From positions 1-42,321 of the forward strand of contig JAJXYX010000061.1 of the NCBI GenBank assembly GCA_021780355.1: a stretch of 42,321 nucleotides of DNA, given 5' to 3'. Below are positions 340 through 42,312 of the stretch, one piece after another. Position numbers and translations under genes: made by a program. The notes under the pieces were generated by a model. The model did no database searches. It was not told where the DNA came from and saw only the letters and a program-made list of their open reading frames with translations. Source of the stretch: a bacterium. Its GTDB lineage: Bacteria > Chlamydiota > Chlamydiia > Chlamydiales > SM23-39. How positions within the stretch are numbered: the first letter of the stretch is position 1; every line of letters begins with the position of its first letter.

Positions 340-1149
340 ATGAATGAATTAGCAGGGTTGGGCAAATTATCTCGCAAGAGGCTTTCAGACGTGCTTCGCA
401 ATTCAAAAGGCTGTATGTCAGTGAGTTTGGTCGCGGAAACATTAAATGTCTCAAGAGAACAGGCAAGGCTGTATTTGTCCTCATGGGTAAAAAATGGCTG
501 GCTACGAAGGGTCAGGAGGGGGCTATATTTTCCTGTGGATATTGCTGCCGAAACTCCTGATTGTAGCATGCTCGATCCATGGATAATAGCCTCGCAAATC
601 TTTTCCCCTTGCTATATTGGCGGGTGGTCTGCGGCTCAGCATTGGGATTTTACCGAGCAGATTTTCGAATCGACGATCGTTTTTACCTCTCGACGCCTAA
701 ATCAGAAAGAGCAGTCTATTGCGGGATTAACATTTTTGATAAAAAAATCCACGTCCGACAAAATGTTTGGGCTTAAGTCCGTCTGGAAAGATCAGATCAA
801 GGTGCAAGTGTCGGATCCTCATAAGACGATCATAGATATGTTTGATGATCCATCAATTGGAGGAGGAATTCGTTGTATGGTCGATTTTTTCCAAAAATAT
901 CTCTCTTCAAGCGAATGCGATCTGAATATTTTGATCCAATATGCGGAGAAGATGAATAATAAGGCGATTTTTAAACGTTTAGGATTTGTATTATCAAAAC
1001 TAAAGCCCAATGAGACTCGTTGGATTACACAGTGCCTAGAACATTTGAGCCAGGGAAATTCGCAGCTAGACCCAACATCAAAAGGGAAACGTCTGATCAA
1101 AAAATGGAGATTATGGGTTCCTGAAGGATTAGAAGAGGGACTTCGATGA
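340..1149 (+). CDS. abiEi: AbiEi-family antitoxin / transcriptional regulator
   Basis: This 269-residue protein is the antitoxin half of an AbiE-type (type IV) toxin-antitoxin or abortive-infection pair. Residues about 20-62 form a winged helix (VAETLNVSREQARLYLSSWV, then the basic wing LRRVRRGLYFP). This is the usual AbiEi N-terminal DNA-binding domain. The following part, with YIGGWSAAQHWDF and DPHKTIIDMFD, fits the AbiEi C-terminal antitoxin domain. In this family the antitoxin represses its own operon and counteracts the toxin without needing to bind it stably. The gene overlaps the next by 4 bp (ATGA), so the two are translationally coupled. ATG at 340 is the first start. The ribosome site before it is weak (GGGTG). 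Family assignment is confident. A phage-defence or island-maintenance role is inferred. Confidence 0.88.
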   Translation: MNELAGLGKLSRKRLSDVLRNSKGCMSVSLVAETLNVSREQARLYLSSWVKNGWLRRVRRGLYFPVDIAAETPDCSMLDPWIIASQIFSPCYIGGWSAAQHWDFTEQIFESTIVFTSRRLNQKEQSIAGLTFLIKKSTSDKMFGLKSVWKDQIKVQVSDPHKTIIDMFDDPSIGGGIRCMVDFFQKYLSSSECDLNILIQYAEKMNNKAIFKRLGFVLSKLKPNETRWITQCLEHLSQGNSQLDPTSKGKRLIKKWRLWVPEGLEEGLR

Positions 1150-1979
1150 TTAATAAATTTGAGATCGCTCGAAAAGCAAAAGAGCACGGATTGCAATCCT
1201 CCACGATTGAAAAAGACTACGTTTTGGGGTGGATACTGATTGGCATTCAGAATCATCCAGAGACAAAAGATGCATGGGTTTGTAAAGGAGGCACATGCCT
1301 TAAGAAGTGCTTCTTCAATAAGTATCGCTTTTCTGAGGATTTAGATTTCACCCTGCTGGATGCCCAGCAAATGAAAGAAGAGGTTCTGCGCCCTATCTTA
1401 AAACAGATTGCACAATGGATTTATGAGCAGTCAGGAATTGAAATCCCTGAAAACCTAATCTCTTTGGACCCGCATCGCAGCTTATCTGTACAAGGCAAGC
1501 TATCATACCAAGGCCCCTTGAAACAACCTGTTCCTTACCCTTCCATCAAATTAGACCTCACTGCCAATGAACAAGTGGTGCTGAAACCAGAAAAACGAAG
1601 GGTTTTTCACGAGTACTCCGATTGTCCAACCGAAACGCCTCAAATCCTAAGCTACTCCTATGAAGAAATTTTTGCTAAAAAGCTAAGAGCTTTAGTCGAA
1701 AGAGCACGACCTCGCGATCTTTATGATGTTGTCCATCTTTACCAAGAACGCTATCGCTTGACTGATATGAAAAAACTTTTAGAGTCTCTTCAAGGCAAGT
1801 GCTCCTTTAAAAAGATGCAGATGCCAAATCTGGTGGCGATCGAACAACATCCTCAAAAGTCAGAATTTTTATCTGAATGGAAGAATATGCTGCACCACCA
1901 GGTGAAAGATCTAAGGCCGTTCGAGTATTTTTGGGAACATTTGCCCGATATCTTCTCGTGGATTTATCACTCAAAATAA
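1146..1979 (+). CDS. abiEii: AbiEii/AbiGii-family nucleotidyltransferase toxin
   Basis: This is the toxin half of the pair (277 residues). The nucleotidyltransferase signature is complete. GGT sits at residues 48-50 within WVCKGGTCLKKCF. The paired aspartates are D65 and D67 (RFSEDLDFTL). A downstream RPRDLYDVVHL motif near residues 188-198 is typical of AbiEii (R-x-R-D-x-Y-D). EKDYVLGW near residues 22-29 is also conserved in the family. Members transfer nucleotides to an RNA target, in some cases tRNA, and stop growth. The target here is unknown. The start ATG lies inside the antitoxin's stop (ATGA). No motif residue is missing, so the toxin should be active if expressed. It is cargo on an integrase-bearing island, which fits a defence or addiction function. 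Confidence 0.9.
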   Translation: MINKFEIARKAKEHGLQSSTIEKDYVLGWILIGIQNHPETKDAWVCKGGTCLKKCFFNKYRFSEDLDFTLLDAQQMKEEVLRPILKQIAQWIYEQSGIEIPENLISLDPHRSLSVQGKLSYQGPLKQPVPYPSIKLDLTANEQVVLKPEKRRVFHEYSDCPTETPQILSYSYEEIFAKKLRALVERARPRDLYDVVHLYQERYRLTDMKKLLESLQGKCSFKKMQMPNLVAIEQHPQKSEFLSEWKNMLHHQVKDLRPFEYFWEHLPDIFSWIYHSK

Positions 1980-1985
1980 TGAGTC

Positions 1986-2034
1986 GATTACGAAATGTAA
2001 TCAACTGAAGGATTGGTTTACCGGCGCCGGTAAA
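1986..2034. terminator. Palindromes between convergent genes
   Basis: Between the end of the AbiEii gene (1979) and the convergent gene ending at 2066 lie two dyads. One is a 6-bp stem at 1986-2002 (GATTAC, 5-nt loop, GTAATC). The other is a perfect 18-bp palindrome, TTTACCGGCGCCGGTAAA, at 2017-2034. The position suits bidirectional transcription termination. No T-run follows, and the second dyad has no loop, so a protein-binding or recombination site is equally possible. Confidence 0.35.
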
Positions 2035-2065
2035 GTGATCCCTGAATTTCATGCAAATCACCCTC

Positions 2066-2287
2066 TCAATCGAAAAATATCTTGTACCCTCCTTTGGGTA
2101 TTTCTTCGCCAAGGTCACCTCTCCCATTATCAGGCAAAAACACGACGGAATCAGCATCTACTTCGAGTGTATCGATTTGATCGCGAATGTCTGCGTCGTA
2201 TATGACCAGAGCGTAAGAGGATCTTTTCTTTCCCGGTTTACAAACCTTCTCCAGCTCCTCTATTCGTTTCCTGTTTTCCAGCTTCAT
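2066..2287 (-). CDS. Small hypothetical island protein
   Basis: A 73-residue, charged protein of unknown function. The N-terminal 20 residues are likely helical (ENRKRIEELEKVC). The rest, with YALVIYDADI and DADSVVFLPDN, looks like a small alpha/beta fold. No family was recognised. I chose the ATG at 2287 over one four codons upstream because GGAGG lies 5 nt before it. The gene starts inside the upstream DUF5681 gene, overlapping it by about 50 bp in another frame. This points to coupled translation at the end of the Rep-DUF5681 run. Confidence 0.6.
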   Translation of the reverse strand: MKLENRKRIEELEKVCKPGKKRSSYALVIYDADIRDQIDTLEVDADSVVFLPDNGRGDLGEEIPKGGYKIFFD

Positions 2288-2786
2288 ATTTGCCTCCATT
2301 TTTTAGGTTTTCTTCTATAATCTTTAGCCTGGATTCAAATTCAAAAGTCTCCAGGGCTTTTGCATAGCTTTCTATAGTCCTTGAAAGCAATTCTCCCTCA
2401 GAAGGCGAGATCTTTCCTTTCCCCACTGCATTAACGACCACCCCAATGGCGTTGAGCACATCATCAAATGTGGCTATTAAGGGAAGATCGATTTCAATGG
2501 CGCGATCTTTTCTGGGAGGCAAAAATCTTTCTAGGATCATCTTGGCTGCCTGCATATTACCATTCAAAGCTTCCTCTTCGACTTTTTTGCAGATTTTGTC
2601 CAAAGAGCCTTCTAACAGGGCCTCTGCCGCTAGAGTTGACTTATTGCGGGCGCCTTTTGGCTTTCCATTTGGATTGCCCGAACACCCTTTCTTGTATTTC
2701 CCGTTCGCCTGTATTTTTCCTGAATTTTCAGGAGTTTTAGCCTCTGTTTCCATGGTTCCCTTCCCAATTTTCGCGGTGTTGCTCAT
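2238..2786 (-). CDS. DUF5681-domain protein
   Basis: About 182 residues. The stretch KKGCSGNPNGKPKGARNKST near residues 35-54 is the signature of the DUF5681 family, found on phages and integrated elements. The family's biochemical role is not known to me. Its basic, glycine-rich head suggests nucleic-acid contact, and some relatives lie near terminase genes. The middle has a helix with QAAKMILERFLPPRK. The C-terminal third is predicted helical (SRTIESYAKALETFEFE). ATG at 2786 is the first conventional start, and an in-frame TTG at 2795 is possible. The start overlaps the end of the Rep-like gene by about 50 bp. The gene is island cargo. Confidence 0.7.
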   Translation of the reverse strand: MSNTAKIGKGTMETEAKTPENSGKIQANGKYKKGCSGNPNGKPKGARNKSTLAAEALLEGSLDKICKKVEEEALNGNMQAAKMILERFLPPRKDRAIEIDLPLIATFDDVLNAIGVVVNAVGKGKISPSEGELLSRTIESYAKALETFEFESRLKIIEENLKNGGKYEAGKQETNRGAGEGL

Positions 2787-3654
2787 AACAGCCAATCAAC
2801 ATGGCTCTGAAATCGTCTGGAGGCAATTTGAATGAATAGTCTTTGCCAGAGGAAGGATGAGTACAGTAAGACTGGGTGATTTTGATGTCGTTCCAGTTAT
2901 TTCTTCGCGCAAAGTCCTCTATGAAAAGTCGGTTTTCCTTGATATTGCTTTTTTGCTGGGAATAGTTCGCCTTCAAGGCCGTTTCCATCCAAGCCTCCGG
3001 TTTTTTAATTCCATCGATGCCTTGAAGCAGCAGTAAGAGATGATCTGTGATACGCTCAGGCTCATAGAGACGGACCCATCTACGCAAAGCACGTTCTGAA
3101 ATTCGCAGATCCTTTTCCTTACAATATGCAAGAAGCCCCTGGAGATCGGTTTTCTGCTTATCAGAAAAGGGCAACCTATCGGTATTCGGCGCCCTAGAGC
3201 TAAACGTCTCTTTTTTCTTTCTATGATCTGCGTTCTTCGTTTCTAGTTTGTGTCCAGTTTGCTGATCGATTTGCCGTCCCAAATGCTGTTCATTTTGCTG
3301 TCCATTGCTGCTTTGACGGAGAGCTTTTGTCTCTAGGACAAAGACCGAATATGTGCTGGCCCCTTTGCTGTCCACTTTTCGCAAATATCCAAGGCCGATG
3401 AGCTGTTTCAGCCTTGTATAAACATTCTTAGGCGAAATGCCAGCGGCGAGAGCGCATGTTTCTCTGCCAAACATGAATTCAAACGGATCGAGAAGCAGTT
3501 GCTTGCCTTTGCCTTTTAAAGGCACCATCGAGGAATGAGGCGAGATTCGTTTAAGCATCCATACGATAAAGCGCATCATGACGGGATCTCTCAAGAAATC
3601 CTCAGTCAAAAACTCGTGCGGTATGGCAAGAAAGGCATAAGGGAGTTTTGACAT
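2737..3654 (-). CDS. Rep-like winged-helix protein of a plasmid or island
   Basis: A 305-residue protein. Its N-terminal half resembles plasmid-type replication or helix-turn-helix proteins. It opens with FLAIPHEFLTEDFLRDP, followed near residues 67-105 by a winged helix (ALAAGISPKNVYTRLKQLIG, GYLRKV). A polar, Q/N-rich linker follows (near residues 112-150). A second helical region comes after it (RISERALRRWVRLYEPERIT). I saw no catalytic tyrosine or helicase motif of classical initiators, so it may only bind DNA. Its place between an AlpA-like regulator and cargo genes suits a replication or maintenance function for the mobile form of the island. Its 3' end overlaps the DUF5681 gene. The exact function is inferred. 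Confidence 0.6.
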   Translation of the reverse strand: MSKLPYAFLAIPHEFLTEDFLRDPVMMRFIVWMLKRISPHSSMVPLKGKGKQLLLDPFEFMFGRETCALAAGISPKNVYTRLKQLIGLGYLRKVDSKGASTYSVFVLETKALRQSSNGQQNEQHLGRQIDQQTGHKLETKNADHRKKKETFSSRAPNTDRLPFSDKQKTDLQGLLAYCKEKDLRISERALRRWVRLYEPERITDHLLLLLQGIDGIKKPEAWMETALKANYSQQKSNIKENRLFIEDFARRNNWNDIKITQSYCTHPSSGKDYSFKLPPDDFRAMLIGCYEQHRENWEGNHGNRG

Positions 3655-3667
3655 ATCGCTCGCCCGG

Positions 3668-3877
3668 CTAAGAATTCGTGGCGTTGGAAGCGATCTTTTG
3701 AATTTGAAGTTGTTCCCATGCCTCTAAATCGACGGAACGCCAACGGGTCGAACCTGCTCCAAGTTTGACTGGTTTAGGGAATTTGCCATTTCTCGCCCAT
3801 CGCCAAATGGTGGGGCGACTCACTCCATAGCGGAGGGCAGCTTCGGTATCTTTTAGAAATGCTGTTGTATTGTTCAT
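3668..3877 (-). CDS. AlpA-like helix-turn-helix regulator (excisionase-like)
   Basis: A 69-residue MerR/AlpA-type DNA-binding protein. The pattern TEAALRYGVSRPTIWRWARN followed by GKFPKPVKL and TRWRSVDLEAWE is the standard AlpA/Xis-like fold. Such proteins control integrase expression or act as excision factors in prophages and islands. ATG at 3877 is chosen because GAGG lies 7 nt upstream. A GTG one codon earlier is less likely. It is 13 bp upstream of the Rep-like gene on the same strand and probably heads that transcript. The dyad and direct repeats just upstream (3910-3951) are candidate binding sites for it. Confidence 0.8.
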   Translation of the reverse strand: MNNTTAFLKDTEAALRYGVSRPTIWRWARNGKFPKPVKLGAGSTRWRSVDLEAWEQLQIQKIASNATNS

Positions 3878-3909
3878 CACATAGCCTCATTTGAAGTTAC
3901 TATGTGATA

Positions 3910-3951
3910 TAGCGTCTCATATGCAGATGCAGCTAGCGTCGCTATCTGCAT
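3910..3951. promoter_or_regulatory. Dyad and direct repeats upstream of the AlpA-like gene
   Basis: ATGCAGAT (3921-3928) pairs with ATCTGCAT (3944-3951), and TAGCGTC occurs twice (3910-3916 and 3934-3940). The arrangement lies between the stop of the unknown gene at 3942 and the AlpA-like start at 3877, where that gene's promoter should be. It could be an operator for the AlpA-like protein or a transcript hairpin. No T-run follows. Confidence 0.35.
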
Positions 3952-4535
3952 TTATTTTTTTCGCGCTGCCTTCTAACATGATCGCAAAATGCACGATAAC
4001 CGATTGATTTGTAATTACCTAAAGAACAGTGCAATTTTTCTTCATCTCGATAAATAGGATCACCATCATGACTCAGCGGCAAGGCATCCCACAATGTTGC
4101 GCTTGTCCATTTTGTTTTGGACTTGAGCTTTTTGCTGATCCATTGATCCAGGGCAAGCCAAGGACGTTCTTTCTTGGCTGCATCGATTTGCTGACGCCGG
4201 ATTGCTTCCAATTTCATCCCAGCTTCGAAGATGCCCAATTCCTGGGCAACCACGCTCTTTAACGGGGAGTCTGTCTGCTCTGAGTAAAGCCAAACCAGTT
4301 TCAATAAAACCTGGATGGTGTAAACGTGTTCTGGCTGGATATTTAAATCATCAGAGGCCCAAGTGACGATCCAACTGACTCCGGGCAAAGATTCATCGGG
4401 AATCTCTAAAGAGCAATGCATAAAGATTTTCTCAAAGCCAAAGCCAGTCAATCCAGCGACAGTTTTTCCAATGGGGTGCTTTTGAACCAATCGGAGAAGT
4501 CTGGGGGTGATCATTGCTTTGAAAGTGCTGGTCAT
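3942..4535 (-). CDS. Hypothetical protein downstream of the integrase
   Basis: A 197-residue protein I do not recognise. The first half mixes hydrophobic and helical segments (GKTVAGLTGFGFEKIFMH, YTIQVLLKLVWLY) but has no clear membrane span. The second half is basic and tryptophan-rich (RRQQIDAAKKERPWLALDQW, KLKSKTKWTSATLWDALP), ending KYRAF-like and then CDHVRRQREKNK. The basic tail suggests nucleic-acid binding. Its start ATG overlaps the integrase stop (ATGA at 4532-4535), so it is coupled to the integrase and may serve integration or excision. That role is inferred from position only. Confidence 0.65.
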   Translation of the reverse strand: MTSTFKAMITPRLLRLVQKHPIGKTVAGLTGFGFEKIFMHCSLEIPDESLPGVSWIVTWASDDLNIQPEHVYTIQVLLKLVWLYSEQTDSPLKSVVAQELGIFEAGMKLEAIRRQQIDAAKKERPWLALDQWISKKLKSKTKWTSATLWDALPLSHDGDPIYRDEEKLHCSLGNYKSIGYRAFCDHVRRQREKNKCR

Positions 4536-5836
4536 GGTGCTACCCCCGTCAAGAGATCCAGTTTCTCACCCAGTTTTTCCCATGCTTGACGCATTTCAGC
4601 TTCATAACCGTAACGCTGGTAAATCCGTTTGATCTTGTTTTCTTCCATGTGATTTAGACAGCGCTCGGCTACTTCAGGAAGAACGCCCAAAGAATTCATA
4701 AGCGTGGCTCCTGTGCGTCGTAAATCGTGGGGTTTCCATATACCTCTAGAGAGCTTGAGCGCTCCGATTTGCTTGCTTCTATTTTTATGTCCCCCGCTAT
4801 CTCTTTGACGATCGGTGATTTGTTTTGTCACTGTTTTTGAGCAAAGGGAGTCGCTTTTACGGCTCGCTGGAAAACACCACTCTCCAGCGCCCGTTAACTC
4901 CTTGAGTTTGATGAAATGGCGAATCGCAAAGGAAGAGAGATAAACGATATGCTCTTTGCCATTTTTGCTGTTTTGGGCAGGGACTCGCCAAAATTTCCGC
5001 TCAAGATCCACATGATCCCAACGAGCCTTGAGTAGCTCGCCGATCCGACAGCAGGTAGCAAGGACAAGCCAAATTGCAAGAGTGGCAGTCTCTGCCATAT
5101 TTGCATTCGGAAGCTTCTTGGCTAGGTCTTTGATCTCATCTTCGTCAAGGACTCGATCTCTTTCTACATTTGCTCCACCAATGGTTTTCTTGCTGAGCAA
5201 AGCCGTTGGGTCTGATTCGAGGAGATCGCGGGTAACAGCAAAACGGAACATCTGGCGAGTAAGGCTGAGGATAACTTTAGCCATGCGATTAACCCCGCGT
5301 TGCAGGAGACGATCTGTGATTTCGGTAATGTGTCCTTTGCGAACGTCTTTGATGTTCAAATCGCCAATGAAAGGGAGAACATCTTTCAACACCATTCTTC
5401 TAGCTTCTTTGCCTTGATCTTTACGGTTGATGAGATCGGTAGCAGCCCAGCGATCAAAGAGATCCCTAACCAGAACTCTATTGGATTGTTCTCGGATAGA
5501 TTCCGCCGCCCGTTTGCGTTTATCTTCAACAGGGTCAGCCCCATTGTGCTTTACCTCGTTTTTCAAGCGTTCAGCTTCACGACGGGCTGCTGCAACCGTC
5601 AGACCGGCAATATCATTACGACCGCATCTAAAACCTCCAAGTCCCTTTTTCCGCTCACGCCATTTGTTTTTATGACAAGGCACTGTGTAGCAAAAAATCC
5701 AGGATTTCGTACCGGTGGGCTTGACGCGGAGAACCAAACCTTTGACTTCGGAATCGCGCACATATACAGCCTTGTCTTCTGGTTTAAGATCTTGGCAGTA
5801 TTTGTCCGCTCCGTTGCGAGGGATGAGTTTTTTCAT
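4532..5836 (-). CDS. Tyrosine site-specific integrase of the island
   Basis: A 434-residue phage-type tyrosine recombinase with an N-terminal arm-binding DUF4102-like region (VYVRDSEVKGLVLRVKPTG, KSWIFCY), a core-binding domain and a C-terminal catalytic domain. Numbered from the chosen start, the catalytic set looks complete: R264 (TCCRIGELLKARW), a lysine near 291-294, H370 and R373 (PHDLRRTGATLM), H396 (CLNHMEENK), and Y406 as the likely nucleophile (KRIYQRYGYE). ATG at 5836 is preferred over an upstream in-frame start because AAAGG lies 7 nt before it. The gene lies next to the tRNA-Pro fragment at 6007-6053 and reads away from it, as usual for integrases beside their att site. The protein should integrate the element into tRNA-Pro(GGG). 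Confidence 0.95.
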   Translation of the reverse strand: MKKLIPRNGADKYCQDLKPEDKAVYVRDSEVKGLVLRVKPTGTKSWIFCYTVPCHKNKWRERKKGLGGFRCGRNDIAGLTVAAARREAERLKNEVKHNGADPVEDKRKRAAESIREQSNRVLVRDLFDRWAATDLINRKDQGKEARRMVLKDVLPFIGDLNIKDVRKGHITEITDRLLQRGVNRMAKVILSLTRQMFRFAVTRDLLESDPTALLSKKTIGGANVERDRVLDEDEIKDLAKKLPNANMAETATLAIWLVLATCCRIGELLKARWDHVDLERKFWRVPAQNSKNGKEHIVYLSSFAIRHFIKLKELTGAGEWCFPASRKSDSLCSKTVTKQITDRQRDSGGHKNRSKQIGALKLSRGIWKPHDLRRTGATLMNSLGVLPEVAERCLNHMEENKIKRIYQRYGYEAEMRQAWEKLGEKLDLLTGVAP

Positions 5837-5856
5837 AGAAAAGCCTTTGTTCTCCA

Positions 5857-5885
5857 GGTGGTGGATAGATGGTGGATGAATCCAC
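5857..5885. promoter_or_regulatory. GGTGGAT repeats upstream of the integrase
   Basis: GGTGGAT occurs at 5860-5866 and again at 5871-5877 (11-bp period, same helix face). An inverted ATCCAC follows at 5880-5885. The cluster lies 24-50 bp before the integrase start and about 120 bp from the tRNA fragment. It could be integrase arm-type binding sites or an operator controlling integrase expression. Confidence 0.4.
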
Positions 5886-6006
5886 ATAAATCGTGTTGCA
5901 TCAACATAAGACAAAAAGTTGATTCAAATCAAGAAATACGAGAGAGTTGCGAGGAATTCCGTGGCACGAAATGAGACAGGATGATATGGTTAAAAACATG
6001 AAAAAA

Positions 6007-6122: not shown

Positions 6123-6257
6123 TATACCGTTCGTGACTCAAAAATCGGCTATTGGACGGGATTGAAAACCGTCAAAAATCGATCGCAGCAAAGTGAGTTG
6201 TATTCAGTAATACTAGCTCACTTTGCGGCGATCGATTTTTGAGTCACGAACGGTATA
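6123..6257. repeat. Palindromic element copy A (135 bp, internally deleted)
   Basis: The copy begins TATACCGTTCGTGACTCA and ends with the reverse complement, TGAGTCACGAACGGTATA. The centre is a stem (GCAAAGTGAG with CTCACTTTGC) around TTGTATT...AATACTA. The left arm carries an extra 34-bp block (ATCGGCTATTGGACGGG onward) that the right arm lacks. The short repeat CAAAAATCG borders this block, so the right arm probably lost it by recombination. 135 is exactly 169 minus 34. It is non-coding. Around it, 5837-6006 holds only the integrase leader. The segment 6258-6443 has a short coding-like remnant ending at 6385 but no recognisable gene. Confidence 0.85.
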
Positions 6258-7660: not shown

Positions 7661-7829
7661 TATACCGAAGAAAGCTGAAGAATAGGCTTATAGGCGGGTT
7701 CAAAGCGCCAACAATCGATTGCGGCAAGTGGGTTGTATTGTGCCTCATACTAGCCCACTTTGCCGCATTCGATTTTTGGCAGCTTTGAATCCCGTCTAAT
7801 AGCCGATTCTTGAGTCACGAACGGTATAA
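7661..7829. repeat. Palindromic element copy B (169 bp, full length)
   Basis: The copy runs from TATACCG at 7661 to CGGTATA at 7823-7829, exactly 169 bp. The right arm is canonical (GATTTTTGGCAGCTTTGAAT, then GAGTCACGAACGGTATA). The left arm matches from GGCTTATAGGCGGGTTCAA inward, but its outermost ~20 bp (GAAGAAAGCTGAAGAAT) have diverged. The central stem is GCGGCAAGTGGG with CCCACTTTGCCGC around GTAT...ATAC. The opposing inner arms read TTCAAAGCGCC and ATTCAAAGCTGCC, a small bulge also present in copy F. The remaining 7650-7839 holds nothing else. Confidence 0.85.
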
Positions 7830-9608: not shown

Positions 9609-9763
9609 GCGTAAAAAAACTTTTCTAGAGTGAGTGTTATTTTAGGCGCTTTTGCAGGTATTGAAGCTGCTAGAATAGAAAAGCTTGGGGCTGCTTTAAT
9701 GTTTTCTATGGTGGTCACAAATCTGGTTTGTGCTTTAGATCCCAACATTTGGAATGTGAGATG

Positions 9764-9828
9764 GCATTCGATTTTTGGCAGCTTTGAATCCCGTCCAATA
9801 GCCGATTCTTGAGTCATGAACGGTATAA
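9764..9828. repeat. Palindromic element copy D (right half only)
   Basis: GCATTCGATTTTTGGCAGC through GAGTCATGAACGGTATA matches the right arm of copy B nearly base for base over 65 bp. The left half is absent. It lies 52 bp before dapA. The rest of 9609-9880 contains a short plus-strand open frame (9630-9812) that runs into this repeat and looks like a coding remnant with hydrophobic residues. I do not call it a gene. Confidence 0.8.
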
Positions 9829-12387: not shown

Positions 12388-12420
12388 GCTGAAGAATCGG
12401 CTTATAGACGGGGTCAAAGC
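12388..12420. repeat. Palindromic element copy C (short left-arm fragment)
   Basis: GCTGAAGAATCGGCTTATAG followed by ACGGGGTCAAAGC matches the left arm of copy B (GCTGAAGAATAGGCTTATAG, GCGGGTTCAAAGC). Only this fragment is present. It lies 19 bp past the purB stop. The shared GCTGAAGAAT edge with copy B defines a second arm subtype. Upstream, 12273-12387 is A/T-rich, with a TTAATTAAATATTTAATTAA-like dyad near 12317-12336, and has no gene. Confidence 0.65.
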
Positions 12421-22674: not shown

Positions 22675-22763
22675 GCAGGGATTTTTTCTTTTCAGTCTTC
22701 AGGTTAGCTGCAACCCCCGCCTCTTGGCAATAGGAAAAATTGAATAAGAATGTGAATTTGTCA

Positions 22764-22927
22764 ATCTGTATGGGGCTCTGCCCCATGCCCCGCCAAAGGA
22801 CTGCGTCCTTTGGAATCCTTTTTTATTGCTGTACAATCATTTCCCTTACCAGGAAAATAATCCAAGAAACTTAAGGTTTCCAAAGGACGCAGTCCTTTGG
22901 TGGGGTTTGGGGCGAAGCCCCATACAG
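22764..22927. repeat. Pair of inverted GGGGC/CCAAAGGAC hairpin units
   Basis: Two ~52-bp units face each other: 22764-22816 and 22877-22927. Each contains two small hairpins, one TGGGGCTnnGCCCCA-like and one CCAAAGGACTGCGTCCTTTGG-like. The 60-bp spacer is unrelated and A/T-rich. The pair fills the divergent gap between the transporter and recC. A single shorter relative occurs at 17411-17426. The units can fold in RNA from either strand, and the right one would lie in the recC leader just before its ribosome site. Confidence 0.85.
22810..22837 (+). promoter_or_regulatory. Candidate recCBD promoter inside the repeat pair
   Basis: TTGGAA (22810-22815) and TACAAT (22832-22837) are separated by 16 bp. 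The -35 half sits at the edge of the left repeat unit and the -10 in the spacer. A transcript from here would carry the right-hand hairpins (22877-22927) before the recC start. Confidence 0.35.
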
Positions 22928-22944
22928 ACTGTTGGAGTAAAAAT

Positions 22945-32696: not shown

Positions 32697-32768
32697 TATT
32701 CCGTTTGTGACTGAATAATCGGTTATTGAACCCGTCCAATAGCCGATTCTTGAGTCACGAACCGTATA
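32697..32768. repeat. Palindromic element copy E (72-bp, outer arms only)
   Basis: TATTCCGTTTGTGACTGAA at the left pairs with the canonical right end GATTCTTGAGTCACGAACCG at the right, ending GTATA at 32768. Only the outer ~35 bp of each arm remain and they join directly at CCCGTCC, so the inner stem is missing. It lies between the GTG start of the upstream membrane-protein gene and the rpsT stop, 3 bp from the latter. It could act as an rpsT terminator hairpin. Confidence 0.8.
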
Positions 32769-40178: not shown

Positions 40179-40216
40179 GGTGGAACGGGTAGATAGCGCT
40201 TCTTGTTGAAAGGCAC

Positions 40217-40412
40217 CTGGACTTTGTCCATTGACACCGGAGTTTGGACTAATTTTGAGCTTAGGGAACGCAATCTTTTGACTTTCAGTGTGTTAGATCT
40301 AATTTTGCCTGCCCGTTCGGGTATGGTCAAAATCAGATATGACGCACTAAAAGCCAAAATACTGCATTCTCTAAGCCCAAAATTAGTCCAGACTCCAGTT
40401 GACAAAGTCCAG
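40217..40412. repeat. 196-bp imperfect palindrome
   Basis: Two ~95-bp arms are reverse complements with about 80-85% identity by eye. The left arm begins CTGGACTTTGTC and continues GAGTTTGGACTAATTTTGAG. The right arm ends GACAAAGTCCAG, and inward reads CAAAATTAGTCCAGACTCCA. The centre is GCCCGTTCGGGT. Nearly mirror-image open frames on both strands are a by-product of the symmetry and are not genes. It sits between a GT4 gene (+, ends 40178) and the VWA gene (-, ends 40427), where it could end both transcripts. It shares no sequence with the 169-bp family. Confidence 0.85.
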
Positions 40413-42143: not shown

Positions 42144-42312
42144 TATACCCAACGTGATTCAAAATTTGGCCGCTAGGCGGGATTGAAAGCTGCCAAAAAT
42201 CGATTGTTACAAAGGGGGGTAGTATTAAATCAATACAATCCCCCTTTGTAACAATCGATTTTTGGCGCTTTGAACCCGCCTAGCGGCCAAATTTTGAATC
42301 ACGTTGGGTATA
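42144..42312. repeat. Palindromic element copy F (169 bp, full length, divergent arms)
   Basis: From TATACCCAACGTGATTCAA to its reverse complement ending GTTGGGTATA, exactly 169 bp. The outer arm is diverged from copies A and B (CCAACGTGATTCA against CGTTCGTGACTCA), yet both arms of F agree with each other. The inner stem is TTACAAAGGGGG with CCCCCTTTGTAA around GTATT...AATAC. The inner asymmetry (ATTGAAAGCTGCC against TTCAAAGCGCC) is the same as in copy B but inverted, so F lies in the opposite orientation. 42026-42143 is the VWA leader and holds no other gene. Confidence 0.9.

Follow-up and report, generated by a model that had tools for sequence, protein, structure and literature searches.

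The 169-bp palindrome at the end of the contig shown above is one copy of a large family of MITEs that insert at, and duplicate, the dinucleotide TA. These elements are probably non-autonomous MITEs moved by IS630, whose arms are rewritten by arm-to-arm copying while selection at the DNA level acts on two internal features, an asymmetric node and the loop. The window, i.e., the whole stretch of 42,321 nucleotides that was analysed, is the entire 42-kb contig C4 of a genome that consists of 105 contigs and 1.96 Mb. By eye, its genes resemble those of an environmental member of the Chlamydiota. The whole 165–170 bp of an element would fold into a single hairpin comprised of an outer stem, the asymmetric node, an inner stem, an A-A mismatch and a GTAT/ATAC loop. 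Compensatory change is commonly taken to prove that an RNA is functional. In this family, the covariation is extreme and the copies per genome are very many, yet G·U tolerance and transcription-linked orientation are missing. Because single conversion events can be read, selection and DNA template switching become directly testable as sources of covariation.

Copy F (Table 1) starts with TATACC and ends with GGTATA, and its length and position are exactly those given by the first-pass annotation. The contig stops 9 bp past it. Its inner arms, of 35 bp each, are 94% complementary, and the TA at each of its ends is the duplicated target, the TA target being known from the empty sites of other copies. 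Copy B had been described as 169 bp long (7661–7829) but measures 168 bp. It is a mosaic of two classes, with a left outer arm TATACCGAAGAAAGCTGAAG (class C) and a right outer arm TATACCGTTCGTGACTCAAG (class B'), and its outer arms are therefore not complementary. The earlier statement that arms are complementary within copies thus holds for copy F and for the inner stem of copy B, but not for the outer arms of copy B. The differences that had been quoted between the outer arms of copies A, D, and E and that of copy F are real, as are those among the inner stems of A, B, and F.

Table 1. Copies of the palindrome family in the window and parts of copy F.
Feature	Position	Strand	Remarks
Copy F, full-length palindromic MITE, class F, 169 bp	42144..42312	+	conserved polarity: bulged-T arm left
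Copy F, left outer arm / terminal inverted repeat, 38 bp	42144..42181	+	100% complementary to 42275-42312
Copy F, left (alpha) node arm ATTGAAAGCTGCC	42182..42194	+	G42185 opposite G42272; T42191 bulged
Copy F, inner stem, left arm, 3' end TAGTATT	42192..42226	+	A42221 opposite A42237
Copy F, inner stem, right arm, starts AATACAA	42232..42266	+	
Copy F, right (gamma) node arm GGCGCTTTGAA, without the T	42264..42274	+	
Copy F, right outer arm / terminal inverted repeat	42275..42312	+	
Copy B, 168 bp, class C (left) / class B' (right) mosaic	7661..7828	-	inner stem complementary, outer arms not
Copy A, 135 bp, class B'	6123..6257	+	right arm internally deleted
Half copy, single arm, class B'	9762..9827	-	
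72-bp mini-palindrome	32697..32768	+	only its ends class B'
Class C arm fragment, 33 bp	12388..12420	+	

Well over 100 copies of the family are found in this genome. Searches with F and with B each returned at least 40 places, and the class B' terminus has 170 matches when up to 3 mismatches are allowed, against 0 for the reversed pattern. In a 748-kb sample in which all classes were read, 69 elements, 47 of them full-length, make up about 1.3% of the DNA. Full elements are 165–170 bp long, non-coding, and dispersed. ORFs take up 80% of the sample, and 45 of its 51 elements of at least 120 bp overlap no ORF by more than 30 bp. The arms fall into at least four classes (F, B', C, and D), and outer-arm mosaics between classes account for 13 of the 75 full copies. 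The relation between strand and local GC skew (30 vs. 19) is not significant. Some of the copies were gathered through their resemblance to F and B, and the set probably amounts to less than half of those in the genome. Many contigs terminate inside a copy, often near its centre (C13, C15, C25, C42, C47, C97, and others), so that these repeats interrupt the assembly. The genome probably has more copies than were counted, and the fragmentation of MAGs in Chlamydiota may be due in part to these elements.

Duplication of TA is seen at empty sites, for which the element and one TA were removed and the joined flanks were compared with paralogues or other repeats. A class C copy lies within a B' copy at L061 (98.6% over 142 bp), an element lies within a different hairpin repeat at L059 (91% over 135 bp), and L030 has an unbroken paralogue (85% over 142 bp). 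The elements at L042 and L027 are inside other copies. These sites, together with ends that match an IS630 element, bear out the earlier suggestion of a TA-targeting, IS630-type MITE. The accompanying remark that no transposase is visible needs revision, since the likely source is an IS630 element with matching ends whose copies are cut at contig ends. A profile search of this genome for DDE_3 (PF13358) found nothing, and no intact IS630 is assembled in it. Reading of the contig ends accounts for this, because the copies that the profile missed are cut at assembly breaks. The IS630 left end is present at the start of C82 and at the end of C93 as TATACCCTTCGTGAATCAAAATTTTG (TACACC... in C93), followed by the ORF start MNFLTEKEREQLKLQHRRERDG, while the end of C84 and the start of C85 carry the C-terminus of the transposase followed by the right terminal inverted repeat (TIR). 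This C-terminus occurs at seven places in the genome, six of which are contig ends. Additionally, at C79:29337-29875 a truncated IS630-like ORF (HTH_29, weak IS630 match) lies between the MITE ends of a 539-bp element.

Intact IS630 elements of 1119–1121 bp with MITE-like ends are found in other MAGs (L149, positions 616–1736, L150, and L152). The left TIR of L149 equals class F2 over 24 of 24 bases, and the ends of L150, of L152, and of the genome's own IS are similar. The 347-aa product of L149 matches the NCBIfam IS630 model at 215.5 bits (cut-off 100) as well as DDE_3. Relatives of the genome's own IS630 element are mostly found in MAGs labelled Chlamydiae. The MITE is very likely moved in trans by a chlamydial IS630-family transposase with shared terminal repeats, a view that draws on the shared ends in the way that was used for RUP. 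By eye, the outer ~36 bp of the MITE resemble the IS right end. Neither part of the core, the node or the inner stem, was present in the IS ends that were read. Many accepted MITEs have interiors that are unrelated to the parental element. In several genera the ends are unlike TATACC, for example TAGTACACTG and TAGGGAGCTGTC, and so other movers may act there. Searches of viral contigs with the exact core pattern and of plasmids and phages by distant blastn gave no match. In another genome, a MITE with shared TIRs splits an IS630 transposase gene from the family to which the mover belongs (L083; G009:C66:22180-22569).

Arm matching within the genome was measured on the 75 full copies, with both arms aligned and the right arms permuted 2000 times among copies of the same class pair. 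The inner stems hold 67 mismatches, against 157.4 ± 9.3 after permutation (minimum 127). The outer arms hold 281 mismatches, against 313.5 ± 5.2. In mosaics, the outer arms are mismatched and the inner stem is matched (20 mismatches vs. 62.5 ± 7.0 permuted). Hence changes in one arm are mirrored in the other, as first proposed, beyond chance even inside one sequence class. Among same-class copies, deviations are matched in both arms in 70 cases (34 distinct) and confined to a single arm in 154, counts that refer to cells and not to independent events because the copies are related. It is very improbable that this matching is a founder effect only, in which a few perfect palindromes were amplified and the copies are young, with neither conversion nor selection. 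Many copies are indeed 98% identical, and several matched changes are common to 4–7 copies, each of which counts once. However, a founder effect does not account for within-copy matching beyond class, for the many distinct matched double changes that are private to one copy, for node replacements in one arm against near-identical relatives, or for the turnover of sequence across genera with pairing preserved.

The one-arm replacements are best seen in the node. In most copies the node is asymmetric, with one arm reading GATTGAAAGCTGCC or GAGATCGCTGCC and the opposite arm reading GTTCAAAGCGCC. In 6 of the 75 copies (L036, L037, L113, L128, L094, and L117) the two node arms are identical. Five different node sequences are found among these six, each of which has asymmetric copies as its nearest neighbours; L036 and L094 each have several neighbours at equal distance, one of which also has a symmetric node, though of another sequence. 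Comparison with the nearest asymmetric copy shows 9 changed node columns in one arm and 0 in the other for L113, L128, and L037, and 7 and 0 for L036. A mismatch at column 36 of L128, just outside the node, survives, which implies a short conversion tract. Moreover, L018, L024_1753, and L033 have a loop whose orientation to the node is reversed. Two further candidates for loop inversion, L121 and L117_17738, were dropped, as the T-bearing node arm is flipped in them too.

Multi-base replacements in one arm and loop inversions are direct traces of arm-to-arm copying, and the matching of the arms arises at least partly through such conversion. Template switching between inverted repeats is known to leave two marks, homogenised arms and an inverted spacer (PMC8604942; PMC8794818), and the node replacements and loop inversions described here resemble them. 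Unlike the published quasipalindromes, the process would here act on a mobile family, with an asymmetric node that escapes erasure. A mutation in one arm would be transferred to the other by template switching through the hairpin, presumably during replication, or, alternatively, by exchange with an inverted copy. In most cases, intramolecular copying and ectopic exchange between inverted copies are indistinguishable. Arm sequences would consequently drift fast with complementarity kept. Recombination also swaps outer arms between classes, the mosaics being its visible products. The symmetrised copies do not form subfamilies, a lack of spread that may reflect youth rather than selection.

The core of the element is found far beyond this genome. 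A covariance-model search across 192 genomes of the class found it in 53 genomes, belonging to 43 of the 118 genera and spread over more than ten families; the copies are often numerous. The same search found it absent from the listed two-contig genomes of ~1 Mb of family f6. Elements of other genera have the same hairpin fold of 158–170 nt with different outer arms, and by eye TA is present near both ends of nearly all of them. In an alignment of 33 cores (A3), double changes occur at 35 of the 42 core pairs, 92.8% of cells are paired (71.4% when shuffled), and the covariation score is 0.591, against 0.194 when shuffled and at most 0.119 when slid. The outer arms are 89% self-complementary, and their identity between genera is 42% (shuffled 32%). 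Between-genera identity of the node is 68% (shuffled 37%). Conserved features of the core are the asymmetric node, with its G·G mismatch and bulged T, and the GTAT/ATAC loop flanked by A·A. The polar strand scores higher wherever both strands are reported, so the polarity of the node and loop is conserved. Additionally, G001, G009, and G015 contain elements with nearly the 26-bp ends of copy F and different interiors. Since nearly the same ends enclose different interiors and the same core lies between different outer arms, ends and core behave as modules. Constraint in MITEs is as a rule confined to the ends, but in this family it is the interior that outlasts them, a pattern that calls for an explanation. 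The Chlamydiota thereby gain a class-wide, assembly-breaking repeat together with its probable mover.

A selected RNA hairpin, i.e., a functional or processed transcript (RNase III substrate, small RNA, or mRNA stabiliser) in which compensatory mutations were fixed successively, would account for the very strong covariation and for the conserved node and loop inside the element. RNase III is known to cut transcripts of Correia/NEMIS and other MITEs (PMC10969869). Such a role is nevertheless unlikely. G-U and A-C pairs are about equally frequent on the polar strand, whether counted as distinct events (43 vs. 39) or as singletons (29 vs. 28). Across genera the corresponding cells number 40 and 29 (P = 0.23). 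All these comparisons are blind to selection acting on transcripts of both strands alike. The polarity is random with respect to flanking tandem genes (11 vs. 10). No Rfam family matches at its gathering score, a tRNA being the sole Rfam match in the window, and matches of the element to Rfam miRNA models are weak, below cut-off, and of the kind generic to long hairpins. Node replacements that alter up to 9 columns at once also do not fit successive fixation. Maintenance at the DNA level fits better than an RNA function, given that G·U has no advantage over A·C and that polarity is independent of transcription.

Conversion alone could keep the arms paired but would erase the node, and the persistence of the node with a fixed polarity suggests that it is under selection. 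Thus, where the first-pass annotation offered selection of the folded form or arm-to-arm conversion, conversion is seen acting, and selection is indicated only for the asymmetric node and the loop. That selection would act at the DNA level, most likely by aiding propagation or by making a long palindrome tolerable to the cell. A recombinase specific for single-stranded DNA hairpins, of the HUH/Y1 REP type or integron attC-like, could explain the conserved bulge and polarity. Comparable features of bulge and polarity are found in Y1-transposase hairpins and attC sites, and here the bulged T and the polarity are conserved across genera. Yet the insertions duplicate TA and the element ends match those of a DDE IS630, and we regard recognition by such an enzyme as quite improbable. 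A Y1 transposase was considered as the mover and rejected, as PF01797 has no match in this genome. A broader possibility, which we hold only tentatively, is that the core is an independently selected DNA cassette of the Chlamydiota, its hairpin recognised by a conserved protein, that rides unrelated transposon ends across the class and has its stems rewritten by arm-to-arm copying.

For an IS630-moved MITE rewritten in this way, the closest known counterparts include RUP of Streptococcus pneumoniae, a MITE of IS630-Spn1. RUP is a 107-bp non-coding repeat of about 100 copies, with IS630-like TIRs, TA targets, and insertion into IS genes (PMC2229807). RUP was described from one species, whereas the hairpin interior here persists in 43 genera under replaced ends, and the arms of the chlamydial element match each other over their full length. 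The Correia/NEMIS elements of Neisseria are likewise MITEs of ~155 bp with 5'-TA ends, target-site duplication, and stable hairpin transcripts; in those parts of the sources that were accessible, and by description only, they differ in that the texts mention no arm replacement in a near-perfect palindrome that spans the element (PMC2229807; PMC10969869). REP/BIME sequences, which are associated with RAYT transposases, are also dispersed extragenic palindromes, but they are 20–40 bp long according to the section available (PMC3733652), depend on a Y1 transposase, and do not duplicate TA, and PF01797 is absent here. TA duplication also argues against identity with integron attC sites. MITEs are known in the intracellular bacteria Cardinium and a Coxiella endosymbiont, a likeness of description and not of sequence, taken from partial texts, and these hosts belong to other phyla.

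IS630 MITEs such as RUP and TA-ended hairpin MITEs such as Correia are already known. Two things are new relative to the open-access literature: an interior that stays conserved throughout a class although the ends change, and arm conversion that is visible in the sequences. No description of MITEs in Chlamydiota was found in that literature. Chlamydial genome papers, in the portions available, report repeats and transposases, and this element is not among them.

Several other repeats and sequence features were noted. The copy at L065 (around position 980) is inserted in a hairpin repeat of another kind, which shares 76% identity with L194:1700-1900 of genome G109, from another chlamydial family. 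The loop of this host repeat likewise reads GGGGTAGTAT...AATACAACTCC, and the loop motif may be common to more than one hairpin family. The core loop TAGTATTA (e.g., window positions 42220–42238) recalls the TAGTATTAC nick site of the Rep proteins of circular ssDNA viruses, which we take to be probably a coincidence. In the window, a second and distinct imperfect palindrome of ~200 nt (40190–40412) with ends CTGGACTTTGTC...GACAAAGTCCAG directly follows a glycosyltransferase-like ORF, and its arms (40236–40307 and 40328–40399) are 82% complementary. Adjoining copy A, ORFs at positions 340–5914 resemble, by eye only, a tyrosine integrase and a toxin-antitoxin pair of the AbiEi/AbiEii type, and they may belong to an integrated element. 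Lastly, an inverted repeat at 22762–22931 is made of GGGGCTCTGCCCC and CCAAAGGACTGCGTCCTTTGG units, and CCTTTGG strings that resemble it flank several MITE copies (e.g., L060 and L065), which suggests a further family of dispersed repeats.
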